Source: Bacteroidia bacterium
GTDB lineage: Bacteria; Bacteroidota; Bacteroidia; CAILMK01; JBBDIG01
NCBI GenBank assembly: GCA_040880525.1
Contig: JBBDIG010000003.1
Coordinates: forward strand, 1 to 51,044
Direction of reading: 5' to 3'
DNA length: 51,044 bases
Made by a program: the position numbers and the translations under genes. Positions within the stretch are counted from its first letter, which is position 1. Each line of letters begins with the position of its first letter. A model generated the notes under the pieces. That model had not been told where the DNA came from. It ran no database searches and saw only the letters and a program-made list of their open reading frames with translations. Below, piece after piece: positions 2,313 through 47,958 of this stretch.

Positions 2313-3737
2313 CTAATTTTCTAACGGAATCCATTTTCCTGTAACCGTTTCGCCATTTTTCAGGGTTACTTCCACCAATAGCAAACCTTGTGAATTTAAA
2401 GGGGCTTTAAACATTGTCTTGCCCTGCGGAATATCCTCCTTGTGCAGCATTTGGCCCTGAAGGTTGTAAACCCTCAACTGCCCTTTTGAAGGGGTATGAA
2501 TCATTAAATGGTTAGCAAACTGCCGGATGACCTGATCATGCATTTCGTCAGCCAATCCAGAAGTTGCATCAGATACCTTCACCATCATAATGTCGAAATT
2601 ATTAGTCTGAGACCAGCCGCCCCTGCCTGCGCCAATTACCGAGCCTTCGGTGGTAGCGGTTACTGCATGGCAGTGATTCACGGTCTGAAAGTCGCCAACC
2701 CCTTTTGTCCAGAGCGTATCTCCATTCTCATTCGTTTTGATGAAAAGGAATTCAAACCTCGTGGATGTTAGCCGATAGCCACCAATGATGTAATTTCCAT
2801 CAGCCGTGCTCTTAATATCATTGCCTGACATCCCCTGTCCAAGGCCGAAGGATTTGTCCCAAATTAGTTCCCCGTCCGGATTCACTTTTATAAAAAATAA
2901 TCCCTGGGGCCTCGGATCCAGATTGATGTAATTATTTACTCCGGTTAATACATAATTGCCATCATTGGTGGGTTCAATTGACCAGAACCAGTCCTGATCT
3001 TCAGATGAGCCGTACACCTGCCGCCACTGCTCTTTACCGTCCTTATCTACTTTTACAATCCATCCATCATCCAGCGAACCAGTTGCAAAAGACCAGGTTC
3101 CACCCGTAAATATATAACCGCCATCTGCGGCTTCAACAGCATCCCATGCATCATCCAGTTCAGTACCACCAAAGGTTTCATCCCACAGCAGGTTTCCAGC
3201 AGTATCAACCTTCAGCAGCCATGCATCCAGATTCCCTGCGCCTTTGCTGTCTGTAATTCCGGTGATCAGCAAATTGCCGTCACTAAGCTTGAGCAAGTGA
3301 TGCCCTTCATCCCTGCCGGTGCCCCCAAAGTTTTTCCTCCAAAGCTCGTTTCCATTCTTGTCAGTCTTTATCAGCAATACATCCTGAGAGCCGTTGGCAG
3401 AATAACTTTGAGTATAGCCGGTTGCCATGTATGCGTCATCATATTCCACCACGGAGATCAGGACGTCATTCATTCCTCCGCCATATTGTTTTGTCCAGAT
3501 GATCTCTCCATCCTTATCAGCCAACGTTAGAAATCCATTGTAGATGTAATTATTAGTGGTGTTCCGGACACTCAACCCTCCGGCAATCAACATATTCCCT
3601 TCTTTGGTTTCAATAATATCCTGGGCTGCGTCCATTCCGTCATCACCCCATTGAATATTAAAGGAGATATGCTGAGCTGCAGTGATTGAAGTACCAAAAA
3701 TGCTGAGGGCCAATAAAAGCAGTACGTATGATCTCAT
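2313..3737 (-). CDS. Secreted beta-propeller-like protein with T9SS type A sorting domain
   Basis: A 474-residue secreted protein. A signal peptide (MRSYVLLLLALSIFGTSITA) is followed by about seven repeats of roughly 50-55 residues. Each carries a pattern such as GGTGRDEGHHLL..GNLLITG or GGTELDDAWDAVEAADGGYIFTGG, then WLLKVDTAGNLLW or a close variant; this is the repeat style of T9SS cargo proteins annotated as delta-60/kelch-like propellers. The last ~80 residues (RVYNLQGQMLHKEDIPQGK, QGLLLVEVTLKNGE, GKWIPL) fit a Por secretion-system type A sorting domain. No catalytic motif is visible, so it may be a binding or adhesion protein. It is monocistronic, and its promoter side faces the LytS/LytTR regulator genes. 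Confidence 0.82.
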   Translation of the reverse strand: MRSYVLLLLALSIFGTSITAAQHISFNIQWGDDGMDAAQDIIETKEGNMLIAGGLSVRNTTNNYIYNGFLTLADKDGEIIWTKQYGGGMNDVLISVVEYDDAYMATGYTQSYSANGSQDVLLIKTDKNGNELWRKNFGGTGRDEGHHLLKLSDGNLLITGITDSKGAGNLDAWLLKVDTAGNLLWDETFGGTELDDAWDAVEAADGGYIFTGGTWSFATGSLDDGWIVKVDKDGKEQWRQVYGSSEDQDWFWSIEPTNDGNYVLTGVNNYINLDPRPQGLFFIKVNPDGELIWDKSFGLGQGMSGNDIKSTADGNYIIGGYRLTSTRFEFLFIKTNENGDTLWTKGVGDFQTVNHCHAVTATTEGSVIGAGRGGWSQTNNFDIMMVKVSDATSGLADEMHDQVIRQFANHLMIHTPSKGQLRVYNLQGQMLHKEDIPQGKTMFKAPLNSQGLLLVEVTLKNGETVTGKWIPLEN

Positions 3738-39113: not shown

Positions 39114-39854
39114 ATGAACAAATTACCAAAAGCACCTTTACAGGAAGCCATTTTCGAGTTACGCTGGCCACTACAACCGGATTCCACAGGCAGACAGCTT
39201 ATTGATGCCGAATATCTGTTTGCCTTGGGCAAATTTCAGGAGGCGCTAAAAAACAAATTTCCTCATCATGTGGCGAAGTTTCCAAGCGATTTTCCTCATC
39301 AGCTTCTGAACTACCAAGCCGTCCACCAGTTTTGGAAAGAGGAAGATACCTGGCCAGTAATACAGTTGGGTCCGGGCATCGCCACTGTAAATGACACAGA
39401 GAAAAATTATGTATGGGATAAAACCTATCTTCCCAATATAAAAACCGCCCTTGAAGCTTTGAAAAAAAGTTATGGACAGTTAGGGTTTAATTCACTCTCG
39501 CTGCGTTACATTGATGTGGTCCGGGTTGCAGACTACGGAAAAGAAAGCTGGGAAGCTTTTGTGGAGGAATATATCAATTTCAGTTTCATCAATCGGTTTC
39601 ATACTCGTGGGAAATTACAGCGCTTTCATTTTGAGCAAAGCTTTGAAATGGCTGGTTCTGGCCTTTTGAACGTTACCTTCTCAACGGGTTTAAATAACAA
39701 GAAAGAAGATATTTTTATTTGGCAGACCGCTGTAAATCGCCACGAGAAAACATCGAATGATGAGGTGATAAGCTGGCTTAAAAATGCCCATGAATGTTCG
39801 TCTGCAATATTTAAAGAAATTTGTAAAAAAGAATTCTATGCAAGCTTTAGTTAG
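39114..39854 (+). CDS. TIGR04255-family protein
   Basis: A 246-residue protein of a family that occurs sporadically in bacteria and has no assigned function. Diagnostic parts are the N-terminal LPKAPLQEAIFELRWPL, the central GFNSLSLRYIDVVRV followed by EEYINFSFINRF, and the C-terminal VISWLKNAHECSSAIFKEI. No signal peptide or transmembrane segment is present, so it is cytosolic. It is the first of three overlapping genes; the next begins inside it (17-bp overlap). The family's scattered distribution and coupling to small unknown proteins suggest a mobile two- or three-component unit. Confidence 0.75.
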   Translation: MNKLPKAPLQEAIFELRWPLQPDSTGRQLIDAEYLFALGKFQEALKNKFPHHVAKFPSDFPHQLLNYQAVHQFWKEEDTWPVIQLGPGIATVNDTEKNYVWDKTYLPNIKTALEALKKSYGQLGFNSLSLRYIDVVRVADYGKESWEAFVEEYINFSFINRFHTRGKLQRFHFEQSFEMAGSGLLNVTFSTGLNNKKEDIFIWQTAVNRHEKTSNDEVISWLKNAHECSSAIFKEICKKEFYASFS

Positions 39855-40308
39855 TGAGCCTACTGCCACCTATGGCGAAACAACCACACCTTCATTGCGT
39901 GAAGAATTTCCAACTCAGAAGGGTAAGTCATCCAGCATTTACTTCAGCCGGCTAAATAGATTTCCTGAAAATATAGCTGAGATGTTTCAGAAATTGAATC
40001 GCCTCTCCCATTTATCAGAAAACTGGGACAGCTATTCAGCAGAACCACCATCTCCAGCTAGTATAGCAGAAGCCCGTACATTCCTAATTGAAAATCACAT
40101 GATTGACCTGCCCTTTTATTTTCTCGCACCGGGAGTAAAGGGTGAGGTTATGTTAGAATTTCAAAAGGAAAGTAAAGCAGCAGAACTTTATTTTCTGCCC
40201 ACTGGCCAAAATGAATTGATACTGTTTAAGGATGATGAGGTGGAGCTTGAAGGTAATCTAAAGGAAAACTTCCGCAAACTCATAGATTTTTTTCAAAGTA
40301 ATCCATGA
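39838..40308 (+). CDS. Conserved protein with NWDSY motif, partner of TIGR04255
   Basis: About 156 residues from the ATG at 39838 (MQALVSEPTATYGE); an ATG at 39784 in the same frame would overlap the previous gene by 71 bp, so the shorter start is preferred. The segment LSHLSENWDSYSAEPPSPASIAEARTFL is a motif shared by many small hypothetical proteins (NWDSYGA-type). The C-terminal half (VMLEFQKESKAAELYFLPTG, ILFKDDEVELEG) is beta-rich. The function is unknown. It overlaps the TIGR04255 gene by 17 bp and the next gene by 4 bp, so it is translationally coupled on both sides. Confidence 0.65.
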   Translation: MQALVSEPTATYGETTTPSLREEFPTQKGKSSSIYFSRLNRFPENIAEMFQKLNRLSHLSENWDSYSAEPPSPASIAEARTFLIENHMIDLPFYFLAPGVKGEVMLEFQKESKAAELYFLPTGQNELILFKDDEVELEGNLKENFRKLIDFFQSNP

Positions 40309-40661
40309 ACATGGAGGTGATAAATGAATATGACCGATTGCTGCGAAGGGTTCAATTCCTGGATCCCAATTTCATAAAAGATGATGGAAGTCCTGCTTCA
40401 TCAAGCTTCAGCCTCAGAAAAGAAGAAGATGGTTTATCAGTAGATTTAGAGCGCCTTACTACTTACCCGAAAGCCATCCAGGATAAAACCCGTTTCCGGC
40501 TCTTTGCTCTAAAGGCCGGTTTCACGCTATCGTTAGGTTTGGAAAACGTGCATAATCCTCAAGAAGATAATGATGCACATTGCTTAGTAAAGGGGAACAT
40601 CACACGGGGAGTTGCCCGAAAGCTTGCGAAGGCTGTCGTACGAATTGCATATCCAGACTGA
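40305..40661 (+). CDS. Small conserved protein, third gene of the TIGR04255 operon
   Basis: 118 residues, no signal peptide. Protein-like features are SSSFSLRKEEDGLSVDLERL, an FRLFALKAGFTLSLGLENVH segment, and a short basic helix near the end (ARKLAKAVVRIAYPD). The start codon overlaps the previous stop by four bases (ATGA). I do not recognise the family; the 'DGLSVDLERL' pattern recurs in small proteins beside TIGR04255-like genes by my recollection, which a search would settle. Confidence 0.6.
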   Translation: MNMEVINEYDRLLRRVQFLDPNFIKDDGSPASSSFSLRKEEDGLSVDLERLTTYPKAIQDKTRFRLFALKAGFTLSLGLENVHNPQEDNDAHCLVKGNITRGVARKLAKAVVRIAYPD

Positions 40662-41838: not shown

Positions 41839-42264
41839 ATGGCTACAAAAAAATCAAAACGGATTGAAATCAAAACAAAACAAAGTTCTGCAAGTGTTGA
41901 AGATTTTATCAATACTATGAAGGATGAACAGAAACGTAATGACAGTTTTATCGTCCTTAATCTAACGCAAACGATAACTGGAGAGGAACCTAAAATGTGG
42001 GGAGCATCGCTTATTGGCTTCGGTAAGAGACGATACAAAAGCCCCAAAACAGGTAGAGAGGTTGATTGGTTTCAAATGGGCTTTTCGCCACGGAAAGCAA
42101 ATTTATCATTGCATCTTGGAGTTGACATACAACAACATTCAGACGCTTTAAAAAAATTGGGCAAACACACAACTGGCGTTGGTTGCTTATACATAAATAA
42201 ACTGACAGATATAAATCTGGATGTGTTAAAAGATATGATTGAAGCTACGGCAAAAGAAATATAA
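41839..42264 (+). CDS. DUF1801-domain protein
   Basis: A 141-residue cytosolic protein. SVEDFINTMKDEQKRNDSFIVLNL, EPKMWGASLIGFGKRRYK and GREVDWFQMGFSPRKANLSLHL, then KLGKHTTGVGCLYINKLTDI, match the DUF1801 (YdhG-like) family; its function is unproven, though the fold resembles regulatory small-molecule binders. It is alone, directly downstream of the intron relic. The start is the ATG at 41839, with no overlapping gene. Confidence 0.85.
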   Translation: MATKKSKRIEIKTKQSSASVEDFINTMKDEQKRNDSFIVLNLTQTITGEEPKMWGASLIGFGKRRYKSPKTGREVDWFQMGFSPRKANLSLHLGVDIQQHSDALKKLGKHTTGVGCLYINKLTDINLDVLKDMIEATAKEI

Positions 42265-42918
42265 ATGCCTTGCCGGTCACATTGGGGTCTGTAATCTGAA
42301 CTCTGTCCGGCAGCTAAATTACACTCCGTTCCGAATCCCGCACGTTTCTTAGCCAAGACCATTAAGCGTATTTTGCCTTTTGACATGGAAGGAACATAAT
42401 TGTAAAGACATGCTAGCCATTTAGAAAATGCTTTTATAAGAAAGGTTTATACTCTTTTCCAGTATCCTGACAGTGGTACGGGACGAGTTTTACCCTCTAC
42501 ACCTCAGTCGCCCGGCTCCAGCCTGGTGTCAACTGCGATCACAGCCTTTGGCCGCAGTCATTCCGGGCATTTGCGTCCCTGCCCTATGCCTCTGGCCATG
42601 CATTGCCTCAACGTCAGAGATATTAGTCGGGGCAAAAGCCTCGGTGAATATTTTTATTCTACTTTTGATACTCCTAATTTCATAGTTGCGAAAGATTATT
42701 TAATGCTGAACGGTCAATTCAAAAGAAAAGATCAAATAAGATAAATAAAAACAGTGGCAAATGCACTTGCACCCAAGAAGTGGTTGCGTTCTTCGTAGGA
42801 CAGGAAGGCGGTAAAAATCCTTACCTGCTTCGCAAAAAATCACACCTTCATGCAGTGGATGTTGCAAAAGGGGTTGTACCTTTTCCCCTTCAAACTGAAC
42901 CATACTAAACTTGTTGCA
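42265..42918. other. Long intergenic region without a supported gene
   Basis: About 650 bp. A short higher-GC stretch at roughly 42470-42620 opens one plus-strand frame (42526-42744), but its composition does not resemble coding sequence around it and nothing in it is recognisable. The final ~70 bp precede the large T9SS gene and are likely its leader. I see no hairpin terminator or RNA gene. Confidence 0.4.
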
Positions 42919-45900
42919 ATGACCAGCGATTTTTTGGCTCGAATAAGGGCTGCCATAGCCAAAACCTTTGTATGTCTTTTCTTGTGCTTGTGCATTCCCG
43001 CATGGTTGGGAGCCCAATGGAATAAACTAAATGAATTCACTGCTGATCCATTGTATACCGTGGAATTGGATGCTTATGGAAGGGTGATAATCGGAGGCAC
43101 TGATTCCATTTACATAGGCACCAACAATGTTTTCAGTGCCATCTATATCGCTGACACACTTGCCATAGGTTATGATCTCATTGCTGTATACGATATTTAT
43201 TTTACCGATAGCCTGAAGGGCATATTAGTAGGGCCTTCATCAAACCTAAATAATCGCGAACTTATTTTGCAGACTGTGGATGGTGGCGTTACGTGGCACT
43301 CACGAAACAGAACCACCCATAATTCTTCGAAGTATTTCATGGCAATAGATACATCCTCTGCAAGTTCTATATACGTAGCTGGCAATATGCCGCGTATTAA
43401 AAGTTCGATGAATGGAGGAAATACCTGGAATAATGTTGCTCACAACACCTTTTACGGAATAAGTGATATTGCTTTCCCACAGAAGGACACCGGTATTGCG
43501 ATTGGGGAAGGCGTGGTTTTAAGATCATATAATAGCGGACAATCATGGACTCCTGATTATTCAGTCGGATATGGTTTTAGGTGCCTTTCATTCGGGGGAA
43601 CTTACACGGGGTACATAGGAACCGATAACCTGATGCATAAAACAATTGACCGAGGCAACACCTGGGATACCCTACTGACACCATTTTATAATATAAAAGA
43701 AGTATTGGCCCTCAATGAAGATACCCTTTTTGTGATAAGCAAACAGGCACCTAATCTTTTGCCAAATGGCATTTTTAGAAGTACTGACGGAGGTTCAAGT
43801 TGGGAAGAGTTCCGGGTATTGAGGGACAAGAAAATCATCCAATTTGGATTCAGGGGCTCAAAAGGTTATGCCGTTGGAGAAAACGGACTGATCTATTATA
43901 CCGATAATCTGGGAGGTACTGCTCATCCTGTCGCAGCTTTTGATACTACCGCTCTTATTCAATGTGGCTATACTGACATTGTGCTCACCAATAGAGGCTC
44001 CCCCTCCAATACCCATATTTGGAAATTGGGAGATTCAATAGTCTCAAATAAATTTAATGATACCATTCGGATTGATCTGCTTTCAAGCAAGGATACGCTC
44101 AGACTCATTTCATCCAATGGCACTTATACAGATACTGCAGTTATGGAGTTAAACATGCCAATAGTAGAATTTGTGGATGTAGATGCAGGGGACGATATTC
44201 ATATTTGCGATAACGGAATCGTTCAAATGTCGCCAACAGGATATTCTAACTATACCTGGTGGCCAGCAGATGGCTTAAGCGACTCTACGATCAAAAATCC
44301 AGTTGTAAGCATCTCGTCTTCTAAAACTTACTATTTAACCACCTTTAATGATGTCTGTACGGGTACAGATTCTATCACAGTTATATTGGAAGCAAAGGCG
44401 GTTTTGCCAGGTTGGGAAAATATTCCCCTTCCTTCCATTTCTTCGTATGGAGACATCAATAATATTCAGTTCACCAGCCCCGCAGTGGGGTATATGATGA
44501 CTGGTGGCGACATATTTTATCGCACCAATGACAGCGGCAACACCTGGCTCGCTTCCACTCCTTTTTCATGGAATACTTTTTTGTCCAATCTCTATTTTTT
44601 AAATGATTCAATGGGCTATGTGGCCAGCAATGCCCTCTATGAAACCAGAGACTCCGGAAAAACCTGGAACAGAAACTATTATATACCGGGAGGTCCATAC
44701 CGTTCCGTTAGTTTCCCCACGCCTGATACGGGGTATGCAGTGAGCACACGCACGATTATGAGGACGATAGATGGAGGCTTCACATGGAAAAAAATGCACG
44801 AAACTCCTAATAACTTTCATGCCTTGAAAGACGTCTACTGCAATAGCGCGGATGAATGCTTCTTTGTTGGAGGGTATGCCTTTTCTTACAGTTTTATCCT
44901 TATCTCAAAAGATGCAGGTGAAACCTATACAAATGCGAATCTGGAATTACCAATCTTTGATATTCACAAAATCAAGTTTTATGACAAATATCATGGTGTT
45001 GCCACAGGGTTTGGCCCGTATATGATGTTGACCGAAGACCGGGGTTGGAACTGGAAACAAGTGGATATTCCAGTAGACTTTTATCACACCATAAGTGCGG
45101 CTGCTTATAGTACGCTAGACACGCTCTATGCAGCCGTTCAAAACATCATTTTCAAATCGCCAAATGGCGGAGCCTGTTGGGATACTTTGCTCAACCGAAA
45201 TCATGGCTTGGGAGACATCTTCTTTATTAACCCGGTTCGTGGTTTTATTGGGGGAAGCTCCACATTGCACAAAATTGGAGGTGATACGCTATTCCATTTT
45301 GATGTTTCCAATATCTGTACAGGGGAAAAATTGACTACCAAAAACCACTCTTCCCATTGTCAGAGGTATGAGTGGTATGTTGACACGACATTATACGCCA
45401 GTTCCTACGATACTTCTTTCTGGTTTACTAATTCTGGAACCTACAATATCTCATTATATGGTTACAGGGGATCTGATACTTTGATTCAAACCAGAAAGAT
45501 AGAGGTTTTTCCGAGGCCAGTGAAGCCAATGCGTCCACTTGGGCCTGCGGATACAGCTTGCGGCACCCCATACCGCACCCAGTTTCATGTTCCCTCATCC
45601 ACCGGAAAATACCATATATGGTCGTTGATCCCTTCTGAGGCGGGTACTATTCTTAATATGCAAAATGACACCATTACTGTGGAATGGACAAAATACTATA
45701 CTGGAAAAACTACTTTACGGGTACGGATGATTAACGAAGGCGGATGTGAAGGGCCTTGGTCTGACTCCTCTCATTTCGAGATATTTCCAAGCTGGGTTCC
45801 ACCACCCCAACCTACTATCAACGACTGGCCAGATCCCTGGCCAGATACGGTATGTTCTAACCAACCTTTTACATTGTTACATGTTACGGGAACACCATTA

Positions 45901-47958
45901 TCTAAATTTCAATGGAGTATAGAAGACAGCCATTCAGCCACCCTTTCCAGTGATGCTGATTCCGTATTGATTTTCTGGGATACCACCTTTACGGGCAATG
46001 TTCAAGTATATGTTAGGGAATTGGATCAGTATGGCTGTCCAAGTATCCCTTCCGATACAGTAAACATCTATGTCCAGCAATCTTCAAGGATACCAGTTTC
46101 ACCCCACGGAGATAGTGTGGTATGTGGAAGTCCTTCTCCCTCAATCTATCGAATCCCAGTCAAAGCTGAGAACTTCTCCAATGTCCAGTGGCACATTGAC
46201 CCCATAGGAGCTGCTACAGTTAGCAATTACCAAGACTCGATGGTTGCTTCATGGGATACAAGCTTCTCTGGAACTGCAAAAGTTTGGTTTTCTACCAGTA
46301 CATCAAGATGTGGCGCTCAACAAAGTGATACCATTCAGGTCCATGTCTCAGGTACCATTGCATCTCCAGTCATCTTAGGTGCAGATTCAATTTGCAAAAA
46401 TGCGCCCGAACCTTTTCCTATCCTTCCATCTGGCAACAATACTTCTGTACGGCTTGCGTGGGATATTTTTCCATCAACGGCTGGGACATCAAACCTAACA
46501 AGTGACACATTATGGTTGAAGATCACTCAAAATGTGGATTCAGTGAGAATAAGGGCGTGGGCGATAGATAGTTTTGGTTGCCGTTCAGAAACATCGGCAA
46601 GATTAATTAAGATGCTACCCGAGCCTGTTTTTCCTGATTTGATCTTGGGTTCGGATACCTTGTGTTCAGGTAAAAATGCAGTTTTTACCCCTAATAAAAC
46701 GAGTACAGGAAATAGCTATGCCTGGAAAGTATTACCAAAATCAGCGGGCACCACAAGTTATTCAGGGGATAGTCTTTGGTTCGATGCTCATCCTATCTTT
46801 AATGGTCAGGTATCCATCACCCTGTATTCTATGTCAATGCAAGGATGCCCTGGAGATTCAGTTACAAAGTCAATTTTGGTTAAGCCTCTTCCTGCTTCGG
46901 TCTCCACTATATCCGGCCCTGATACGATTTGTGAAGGTTCTGCAGTGCTATATTTCATTGACACAGCTCTCTCGAACCTTACCTACCTTTGGAAGGTCAG
47001 TCCTGATACCGCTGCAATGGTTTATCATAGTGGCGACAGCGCTGCTTTGGTTTCCTCATTTGGTTATACTGGTGATGTGGTACTATCCGTAACACCCGTA
47101 TCGCCATTCGGATGCAAAGGCGACTCCACCTTCATTAATATCCATGTGAGCCAGGCACCCGTCAATCAAGTTCCGGACACACCTCAGGGAACTTTGCAAG
47201 TTTGCGTTAACGAAAACACCACAACATCAACGCAATATATTACAAACGCCCCGCCCAATTCGAGGCTTGAGTGGACGCTGCTGCCACCAGCGGCCGGGAC
47301 CATTGACAAAGATTCAGGGTTAGTAAGCTGGAATTATTATGAAGGCAAAGCCTACATTGCCGTTGCTACGATTTTGCCTTGTGGCCGGAGTGGATTTTCC
47401 GTTCCGATAGAAGTGCAGGTGGCAAAAGCTGTGAAACTGGGCTACTTGCCTTTGGACACTAGCATAAATACAAACATGCCGCTGGAGTTAAATGCAAATG
47501 CCACCGGAACTTTGCCGATCAACTATACTTGGTTTAAGAATAGTGTGCCCCTCCTTGGTCAAACCGATTCAGTATTAAGACTACTACAAGTAGATTCAAC
47601 CGATGGTGGAAGCTATCAGGTGAATGCAAAAAATATCTGTGGAACGGACACGAGCCATATAATACAAGTGAATATAATGACCGTTAGTTCCGTATTCAAT
47701 CCGACTACAGAGGTTATGAGAATAGTCCCCAATCCGACAACCGGTATCGCTTATCTTAAAAATAAACCCTATGGCCCAGCCATAATAACCATTGCTGATT
47801 TTTCGGGTAAAGTTGTAAGGCAGGTTGTGGCGCCACCCCAAGCGCATGAAATTCCCCTCCAAATGCAAGGACTTTCAGATGGGATATACTTTATTACTCT
47901 TCAGTCCGACCGTACCATATTGAAGGGTAAAATCGTACTTGTTAATAGCCTTCGATAG
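42919..47958 (+). CDS. Very large T9SS protein with Ycf48-like and Ig/PKD-like repeats
   Basis: A 1679-residue secreted protein. The ATG at 42919 gives a signal peptide (ARIRAAIAKTFVCLFLCLCIPAWLGAQ); the upstream in-frame ATG at 42850 would add 23 implausible residues. The first half contains BNR/Ycf48-like repeats with the W-box (TVDGGVTWHSRN, STDGGSSWEEF, TNDSGNTWLAS, TRDSGKTWNRN, TIDGGFTWKKM, TEDRGWNWKQV). From about residue 860 there are tandem ~90-residue beta domains opening with C-containing GxDTxC motifs (GPADTACGTP, GADSICKN, GSDTLCSG, GPDTICEG). The end (RIVPNPTTGIAYLKNK, GKVVRQVVAP, GLSDGIYFITLQSD) is a T9SS sorting domain. Confidence 0.88.
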   Translation: MTSDFLARIRAAIAKTFVCLFLCLCIPAWLGAQWNKLNEFTADPLYTVELDAYGRVIIGGTDSIYIGTNNVFSAIYIADTLAIGYDLIAVYDIYFTDSLKGILVGPSSNLNNRELILQTVDGGVTWHSRNRTTHNSSKYFMAIDTSSASSIYVAGNMPRIKSSMNGGNTWNNVAHNTFYGISDIAFPQKDTGIAIGEGVVLRSYNSGQSWTPDYSVGYGFRCLSFGGTYTGYIGTDNLMHKTIDRGNTWDTLLTPFYNIKEVLALNEDTLFVISKQAPNLLPNGIFRSTDGGSSWEEFRVLRDKKIIQFGFRGSKGYAVGENGLIYYTDNLGGTAHPVAAFDTTALIQCGYTDIVLTNRGSPSNTHIWKLGDSIVSNKFNDTIRIDLLSSKDTLRLISSNGTYTDTAVMELNMPIVEFVDVDAGDDIHICDNGIVQMSPTGYSNYTWWPADGLSDSTIKNPVVSISSSKTYYLTTFNDVCTGTDSITVILEAKAVLPGWENIPLPSISSYGDINNIQFTSPAVGYMMTGGDIFYRTNDSGNTWLASTPFSWNTFLSNLYFLNDSMGYVASNALYETRDSGKTWNRNYYIPGGPYRSVSFPTPDTGYAVSTRTIMRTIDGGFTWKKMHETPNNFHALKDVYCNSADECFFVGGYAFSYSFILISKDAGETYTNANLELPIFDIHKIKFYDKYHGVATGFGPYMMLTEDRGWNWKQVDIPVDFYHTISAAAYSTLDTLYAAVQNIIFKSPNGGACWDTLLNRNHGLGDIFFINPVRGFIGGSSTLHKIGGDTLFHFDVSNICTGEKLTTKNHSSHCQRYEWYVDTTLYASSYDTSFWFTNSGTYNISLYGYRGSDTLIQTRKIEVFPRPVKPMRPLGPADTACGTPYRTQFHVPSSTGKYHIWSLIPSEAGTILNMQNDTITVEWTKYYTGKTTLRVRMINEGGCEGPWSDSSHFEIFPSWVPPPQPTINDWPDPWPDTVCSNQPFTLLHVTGTPLSKFQWSIEDSHSATLSSDADSVLIFWDTTFTGNVQVYVRELDQYGCPSIPSDTVNIYVQQSSRIPVSPHGDSVVCGSPSPSIYRIPVKAENFSNVQWHIDPIGAATVSNYQDSMVASWDTSFSGTAKVWFSTSTSRCGAQQSDTIQVHVSGTIASPVILGADSICKNAPEPFPILPSGNNTSVRLAWDIFPSTAGTSNLTSDTLWLKITQNVDSVRIRAWAIDSFGCRSETSARLIKMLPEPVFPDLILGSDTLCSGKNAVFTPNKTSTGNSYAWKVLPKSAGTTSYSGDSLWFDAHPIFNGQVSITLYSMSMQGCPGDSVTKSILVKPLPASVSTISGPDTICEGSAVLYFIDTALSNLTYLWKVSPDTAAMVYHSGDSAALVSSFGYTGDVVLSVTPVSPFGCKGDSTFINIHVSQAPVNQVPDTPQGTLQVCVNENTTTSTQYITNAPPNSRLEWTLLPPAAGTIDKDSGLVSWNYYEGKAYIAVATILPCGRSGFSVPIEVQVAKAVKLGYLPLDTSINTNMPLELNANATGTLPINYTWFKNSVPLLGQTDSVLRLLQVDSTDGGSYQVNAKNICGTDTSHIIQVNIMTVSSVFNPTTEVMRIVPNPTTGIAYLKNKPYGPAIITIADFSGKVVRQVVAPPQAHEIPLQMQGLSDGIYFITLQSDRTILKGKIVLVNSLR

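Follow-up and report, generated by a model that had tools for sequence, protein, structure and literature searches.

A TIGR04255-headed operon of a Bacteroidia genome as a candidate member of a modular family of tripartite toxin-antitoxin-like systems

In the 51,044-nucleotide stretch of a Bacteroidia contig that we analysed (JBBDIG010000003.1; hereafter the window), three small overlapping genes form an operon that begins with a member of the TIGR04255 family. We consider it somewhat better than an even bet, at a probability of about 0.55, that this operon belongs to a large and modular group of tripartite systems resembling toxin-antitoxin units, equipped here with a toxin of ADP-ribosyltransferase fold. 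Across the loci that we compared, a constant TIGR04255 first component is followed by a two-gene cassette whose members are exchanged together. The preliminary description of this DNA had proposed a compact unit of the toxin-antitoxin or defence kind, and comparison supports the toxin-antitoxin side of that proposal well: TIGR04255 genes head three-gene operons, recognised toxin families stand as the third gene in several cassettes, and the third gene of the window has an ADP-ribosyltransferase-like predicted fold.

The genes and overlaps that had been described proved exact, and all lie on the forward strand. Gene 1 (39114..39854) encodes the TIGR04255-family protein of 246 aa, the putative constant head of the unit and perhaps a chaperone or sensor. 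Gene 2 (39838..40308) encodes an NWD-domain protein of 156 aa (named for its NWDSY motif), a putative antitoxin or adaptor specific to the ADP-ribosyltransferase-fold tail, and gene 3 (40305..40661) encodes that tail, a 118-aa putative toxin. Genes 1 and 2 overlap by 17 bp (39838..39854) when the ATG at 39838 is taken as the gene 2 start, and genes 2 and 3 by 4 bp (ATGA, 40305..40308). Alternative earlier in-frame ATGs of gene 2 would give overlaps of 71 and 65 bp with gene 1; in the related operons L044, L045, L050 and L039, an ATG is available at an overlap of 20, 17, 20 and 26 bp, respectively. Since L044, from another genome, keeps the same three genes in the same order at local identities of 46%, 40% and 59%, the three window reading frames are not products of chance. 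The overlaps suggest that the genes may be translationally coupled. An intron relic had also been placed beside the operon; Rfam gave 0 matches over the whole window at gathering thresholds and so did not confirm it.

TIGR04255 genes head tight three-gene operons

We collected 135 TIGR04255 loci, among them four pairs of identical copies. The sporadic spread that had been ascribed to the family is borne out: it was found in 16 of 296 genomes sampled from the phylum and 28 of 395 from the class (the samples overlap), and 80 further loci from named genomes span more than 20 phyla. A second TIGR04255 operon lies in the window's own genome, on contig C52. Among 72,556 plasmid records, 3 carry the family, the same with each of two queries, and a tail query found none in plasmid records. 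The window's TIGR04255 protein had 0 matches in 50,697 phage records, and tail searches of viral contigs returned either nothing or one contig that was already in the locus set.

One set of 42 loci, all from one phylum, was sampled by HMM and not chosen by partner (it includes the duplicate pairs L016/L017 and L025/L026). A same-strand second gene, at anything from a 70-bp overlap to a 20-bp gap, follows the TIGR04255 gene in 41 of these 42 loci; the sole miss is the window operon, because the earliest start codon was counted (-71). With the likely start of that gene, at -17, the figure becomes 42 of 42. Within a further 30 bp comes a third gene in 37 of the 40 testable loci, the exceptions being L025, L026 and L034. 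The corresponding figures for second and third genes are 78/80 and 73/78 in the named-genome set, 8/9 and 8/8 on viral contigs, and 3/3 and 3/3 on plasmids. Starting each gene at its earliest codon overcounts overlap; counting from the latest ATG instead still gives an overlap at 84 of 125 loci. Because this downstream pair is near-constant and an equally close same-strand gene stands upstream at only 13 of 123 loci, TIGR04255 opens a unit of three genes, and it nearly always heads a tight operon on one strand. By the preliminary description, partners that are not conserved beside TIGR04255 would have spoken against such a unit; the arrangement is conserved, but the partner families themselves are exchanged, as pairs.

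Exchange of middles, tails and heads

When clustered at E 1e-2, 118 of 133 second genes (middles) and 118 of 129 third genes (tails) fall into clusters of at least two, and the two partitions agree. The window's middle clusters with 68 further NWD proteins, and 66 of these 69 stand with the window's tail family, the remaining 3 having no assigned tail. One 13-member middle family pairs with DUF7689 tails (12), another with tails bearing 'QGD...TQSCDL' (13), and a 6-member family with 'CNYSH' tails (5). The commonest third gene is the window's tail family, to which L143 and L144 were assigned on weak evidence and L139 on E 1.6e-5; tail proportions in the named-genome set are biased, because the first two rows of the alignment used for fetching were NWD-type heads. 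Tail labels in the HMM-sampled set are window type 16, YSH 6, FWHF 4, HEPN 3, QGD2 3, MazF 3, E171 2, PIN 2 (the label of L034 was given by eye, and Pfam gave no support), DUF7689 1, QGD 1 and none 1.

Several tails belong to Pfam families: PemK/MazF in L015 (49.9 bits) and L138 (26.0 bits), PIN in L041, zeta toxin in L029, DUF7689 in L103, and HEPN in L030 and L037 above the cut-off and in L012 below it. Two observations count against the toxin-antitoxin-like reading, namely that the HEPN tails show by eye no obvious RX4-6H motif and that the QGD, DUF7689, YSH, FWHF and E171 classes have no known activity. One head occurs with tails of RNase type, of kinase type and of ADP-ribosyltransferase fold, and every kind of tail has a middle of its own; on the simplest reading of this, the middle would be the antitoxin or adaptor of its tail and the head the common partner of the middles. 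A chaperone-binding motif shared across middles was found neither by hhalign among nine middle families (from whose profiles the QGD-class rows L093, L095, L099 and L113, with doubtful gene calls, were excluded) nor by eye.

When the 11 tail labels are placed on a phylogeny of 130 TIGR04255 proteins (L024, L032, L080, L026 and L057 are omitted, and 6 loci carry no label), they need 21 changes, against a least possible 10 and a shuffled mean of 52.7; the tree was a quick one, and 21 should be read as a ceiling because QGD/QGD2 and YSH/FWHF are related pairs. Cassettes are thus passed on by descent for some time before they are exchanged. Counting starred branches only, 4 changes are forced for the window's class, 3 for QGD and 2 for DUF7689, and swaps beneath such branches include a MazF cassette (L138) surrounded by QGD cassettes and an FWHF cassette (L052) grouped with two of window type.

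The QGD tail family ('QGD...TQSCDL...FFMRVGLPS'; e.g. L090, L092 and L120) occupies 18 loci, with 3 more of a related subfamily; the two QGD tails scanned (L090 and L031) had no Pfam match, and the start of the protein recalls MazF-like proteins by eye only. DUF7689-type tails with a YNCIAWA motif occur in the TIGR04255 operons L103, L107, L118 and L130, a position that suggests a toxin-like role for this Pfam domain. On a small Vibrio parahaemolyticus plasmid (CP063527.1, 158-2105; L029), a TIGR04255 gene, an unknown gene and a zeta-toxin-family gene stand in a row.

Searching the 296 genomes with a profile of the window's tail family gave 9 loci, spread over 8 genomes, and an NWD-like gene lies just upstream of the tail in all 9 (E <= 7.9e-7). 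Their heads comprise 3 unmistakable TIGR04255 proteins, 1 divergent member (on C52) that passes the NCBIfam cut-off, 1 possible fragment (L149) and 4 others. Since the pair stays together under varied heads at these 9 loci, we regard the NWD protein and the tail as the core pair and the heads as exchangeable too; the pair occurs without TIGR04255, as it is found under other heads or with the NWD domain fused to another domain.

The window's genome holds a third NWD-tail pair on contig C21 (L010), under a 219-aa non-TIGR04255 head that by eye resembles the head of L153, the C-terminus of which is weakly COMM-domain-like. The L010 pair is followed by a gene for a small protein of DprA/SLOG-like type (PF02481, E 5.4e-6, below the cut-off), the whole arrangement occupying 537-2372 and 2399-2881, and L044, the closest relative of the window operon, has a DprA/SLOG-like gene directly after it (3065-3541; PF02481, E 0.00058); among the loci covered by this comparison, these are the only two such followers. 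L149 (195-1887) runs from a HEPN-like gene (by eye) through a possible TIGR04255 fragment of 121 aa to an NWD-like gene and then a tail, and the head there is perhaps decaying or trimmed.

Predicted folds and relatives of the window proteins

The AlphaFold model of gene 3 (44 sequences) has a pLDDT of 90.5 and a pTM of 0.83. Its best PDB rows in Foldseek are Tpt1/KptA proteins (9ldi, probability 0.96, E 0.27; 6e3a, probability 0.89, E 0.12), and none in the PDB reaches E <= 0.001, which counts against the reading. VIA rows 1-16 (Z 8.0 to 6.1) consist of 15 Tpt1/KptA entries, one of them named APE0204, and at row 13 AvrPphF ORF2, which we take to be an ADP-ribosyltransferase-like effector; later rows hold CC0527, the VPA0770 toxin, NAD glycohydrolases and a RES toxin. 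Almost all of these rows thus point the same way, and they take in gene 3 over its full length. The best row, 8tg4_A (rmsd 3.3, 91 aligned), reaches a Z of 8.0, at the edge of the range attained by unrelated models, and lies in the C-lobe of Tpt1; the 118 residues of gene 3 span only this C-terminal lobe.

Aligning the tail family with Tpt1 and RES by hhalign gave probabilities under 1%, a comparison in which the Tpt1-RES control equally fails, and the tail profile linked to no ADP-ribosyltransferase-type chain among PDB sequences. Conserved in the family are R14 (58/61), S45 (63/63) and H92 (60/61; 68 rows, gapped rows set aside). Classical ADP-ribosyltransferase triads are of the R-S-E or H-Y-E type; no equivalent of their Glu was found in the gene 3 family, where the third conserved residue is H92. 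Gene 3 resembles the superfamily (Tpt1/KptA, RES, AvrPphF ORF2) in predicted overall fold and differs from it in its R-S-H set, with no sequence link found. Weighing a near-uniform list of folds against edge-level Z scores and the missing profile link, we infer the ADP-ribosyltransferase fold with good reason, short of proof; catalysis would be a further step beyond the fold.

Gene 1 belongs to the NCBIfam family sporadTIGR04255 (117.4 bits against a cut-off of 30, E 8.8e-34), a family without assigned function, of which no mention was found in the CC-licensed PMC papers searched and to which the present analysis adds an operon and cassette context. Its AlphaFold model (90 sequences; pLDDT 88.5, pTM 0.87) consists of two similar halves, each running strand-helix-strands-long helix. 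Phosphagen kinases fill nearly the entire VIA list (Z 9.1-6.5), which also includes one chain of 7o4i (TBP) at Z 6.6. Foldseek found no PDB match at E <= 0.001; a weak group of rows is the immunity protein Tsi3 (E 0.04-0.09, probability about 0.4-0.5). In BFVD, the model matches viral proteins without names, starting at E 1.8e-6, and a protein resembling a marseillevirus early transcription factor subunit (E 5.7e-5), with low TM-scores. From these model-based matches we claim no fold for TIGR04255. A SecB fold was considered and is not supported, SecB being absent among the VIA rows (an absence that is not exclusion) and from Foldseek matches at the above threshold. Polar residues conserved among 90 family members are E11 (90), Q84 (84), R131 (86), N134 (86), D204 (83) and D206 (81), a possible ligand or active site; the window protein keeps E11, Q84 and R131 and has D134, Q204 and A206 in place of the other three, and its site may be altered.

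Neither gene 2 nor gene 3 has a Pfam or NCBIfam match or a convincing PHROG family. In PADLOC, gene 2 aligns with PDC-M32A over a C-terminal portion only (profile 258-349 of 375, E 3.7e-5), and gene 3 weakly matches PDC-M32B (PDLC04579, E 0.0056). When the five nearest tails, that of the window among them, are combined into a profile, it recovers the tail of the M32 locus L005 (E 1.6e-6) and that of L009 (E 1.8e-7), and the tail and NWD profiles recover both proteins of M32 loci. PDC-M32A, of ~375 aa, has its NWD domain fused to another N-terminal domain, whereas in the window the NWD protein is separate and TIGR04255 is the first gene; judged by these sequence matches, the operon would count as PDC-M32 only as a split relative. 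That M32A might be a TIGR04255-NWD fusion was rejected, as the TIGR04255 profile has no match in its N-terminal part. PDC-M32 is an independently defined phage-defence candidate family of PADLOC, which counts in favour of the toxin-antitoxin-like reading. The PDC names reportedly go back to the 2024 bioRxiv work of Payne et al. on embedded defences. A PADLOC hit to PDC-M32 in Sinorhizobium prophages is mentioned in one paper (PMC12429752).

Candidate mechanism and alternatives

In TAC systems, one constant component occurs with the unrelated toxin-antitoxin pairs HigBA, MqsRA and HicAB, and SecB-type chaperones serve the HigA, MqsA and HicB antitoxins (PMC5105189). CmdTAC is an anti-phage system in which a capsid protein draws off the chaperone and CmdT, an ADP-ribosyltransferase, is released (PMC11618068). 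TIGR04255 loci resemble TAC systems (Mtb HigBA1-SecB; CmdTAC) in being three-gene operons with a constant component and an interchangeable pair. They differ in that the constant component is TIGR04255, whose profile found no relative among PDB sequences at E <= 10 and whose listed folds do not include SecB; in that the gene order is head-middle-tail; and in that the scanned middles match no Pfam family and the tail repertoire is wider. Because genes 2 and 3 form no HigBA-, MqsRA- or HicAB-type pair that Pfam recognises, the window operon is not a TAC member, but a similar way of working is plausible for it by analogy.

In TIGR04255 operons, the putative toxicity and its neutralisation, together with sensing and defence, would follow a mechanism akin to that of TAC systems such as CmdTAC. 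The gene 3 product would be a small ADP-ribosyltransferase-type toxin and the NWD protein its dedicated antitoxin or adaptor, while TIGR04255 would bind or stabilise the NWD protein and sense a trigger. If a phage component, say, were to titrate TIGR04255 or alter it, the NWD protein would stop restraining the toxin, and the freed toxin would modify RNA, DNA or protein targets at the cost of NAD, leading to growth arrest. More tentatively, and with the odds somewhat against so broad a claim, TIGR04255 could act as a shared hub, whether sensor or chaperone, in a tripartite immune or toxin-antitoxin class that has yet to be described, is present in many phyla and draws on at least nine exchangeable cassettes. 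One of these would carry a new ADP-ribosyltransferase lineage of minimal size (~120 aa), whose R-S-H active site would be paired with neutralising NWD-domain antitoxins. If this is true, function and operon logic would be gained for TIGR04255, NWD proteins, PDC-M32B, and DUF7689 and QGD tails; the TAC principle of one head with many toxin-antitoxin pairs would extend to a head not known as SecB; and a single search would supply new toxins and antitoxins that can be put to the test.

It is unlikely that TIGR04255 is itself the antitoxin or immunity component, with the NWD protein as an adaptor linking it to the toxin. Such a role would suit a constant first gene and the weak Tsi3 matches, but a single family would then have to neutralise unrelated toxin folds directly, and the core pair also occurs away from TIGR04255. 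Equally doubtful is a non-toxin role, in which the operon would encode a three-protein enzyme complex of NAD or RNA metabolism (NADase or Tpt1-like transfer of RNA 2'-phosphate) and TIGR04255 would be a further enzyme, of guanidino-kinase-like fold. Sporadic distribution (16/296 and 28/395 genomes), the swapping of the tail with MazF, PIN and zeta toxins, and a 118-aa tail that covers only the C-terminal lobe of Tpt1 all speak against an enzyme complex, although Tpt1/KptA enzymes are the nearest folds of gene 3, phosphagen-kinase catalytic domains give the best VIA rows for TIGR04255 (Z 9.1, rmsd 4.0, 193 aligned), and E11, Q84, R131, N134, D204 and D206 are conserved in the family. The replacement of the last three in the window protein weighs against an enzyme and is counted against our preferred toxin-antitoxin-like reading as well.

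Less probable again is TIGR04255 as the effector, with the other two genes as its regulators: no other component is constant, but known toxin families are found as third genes in several cassettes. That the three are mechanical reading frames or a decaying accessory patch without function is very improbable, for they are kept in order and sequence across genera despite the sporadic presence of the family and its broken copies (L024 and L032).

Around the operons, the nearest flanking reading frames (143 proteins from 80 loci, cut at 330 aa) gave scattered PADLOC matches at E <= 1e-10, from which we claim no enrichment; among the 25 of 115 models listed are restriction-modification, DarG, MzaA and others, at 1-2 proteins per model. 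Flanking Pfam families are mostly housekeeping among the 25 of 173 listed, which counts against a toxin-antitoxin-like reading. Close downstream of the window operon lies a DUF1801 protein gene (41839-42264, E 1.3e-8), and a very large reading frame of 1702 aa (42850-47958), by eye a secreted repeat protein, adjoins the operon. Elsewhere in the same genome, a gene of the RES family, a known toxin type, is found at C48:14101-14529 (L174, E 5.1e-22).
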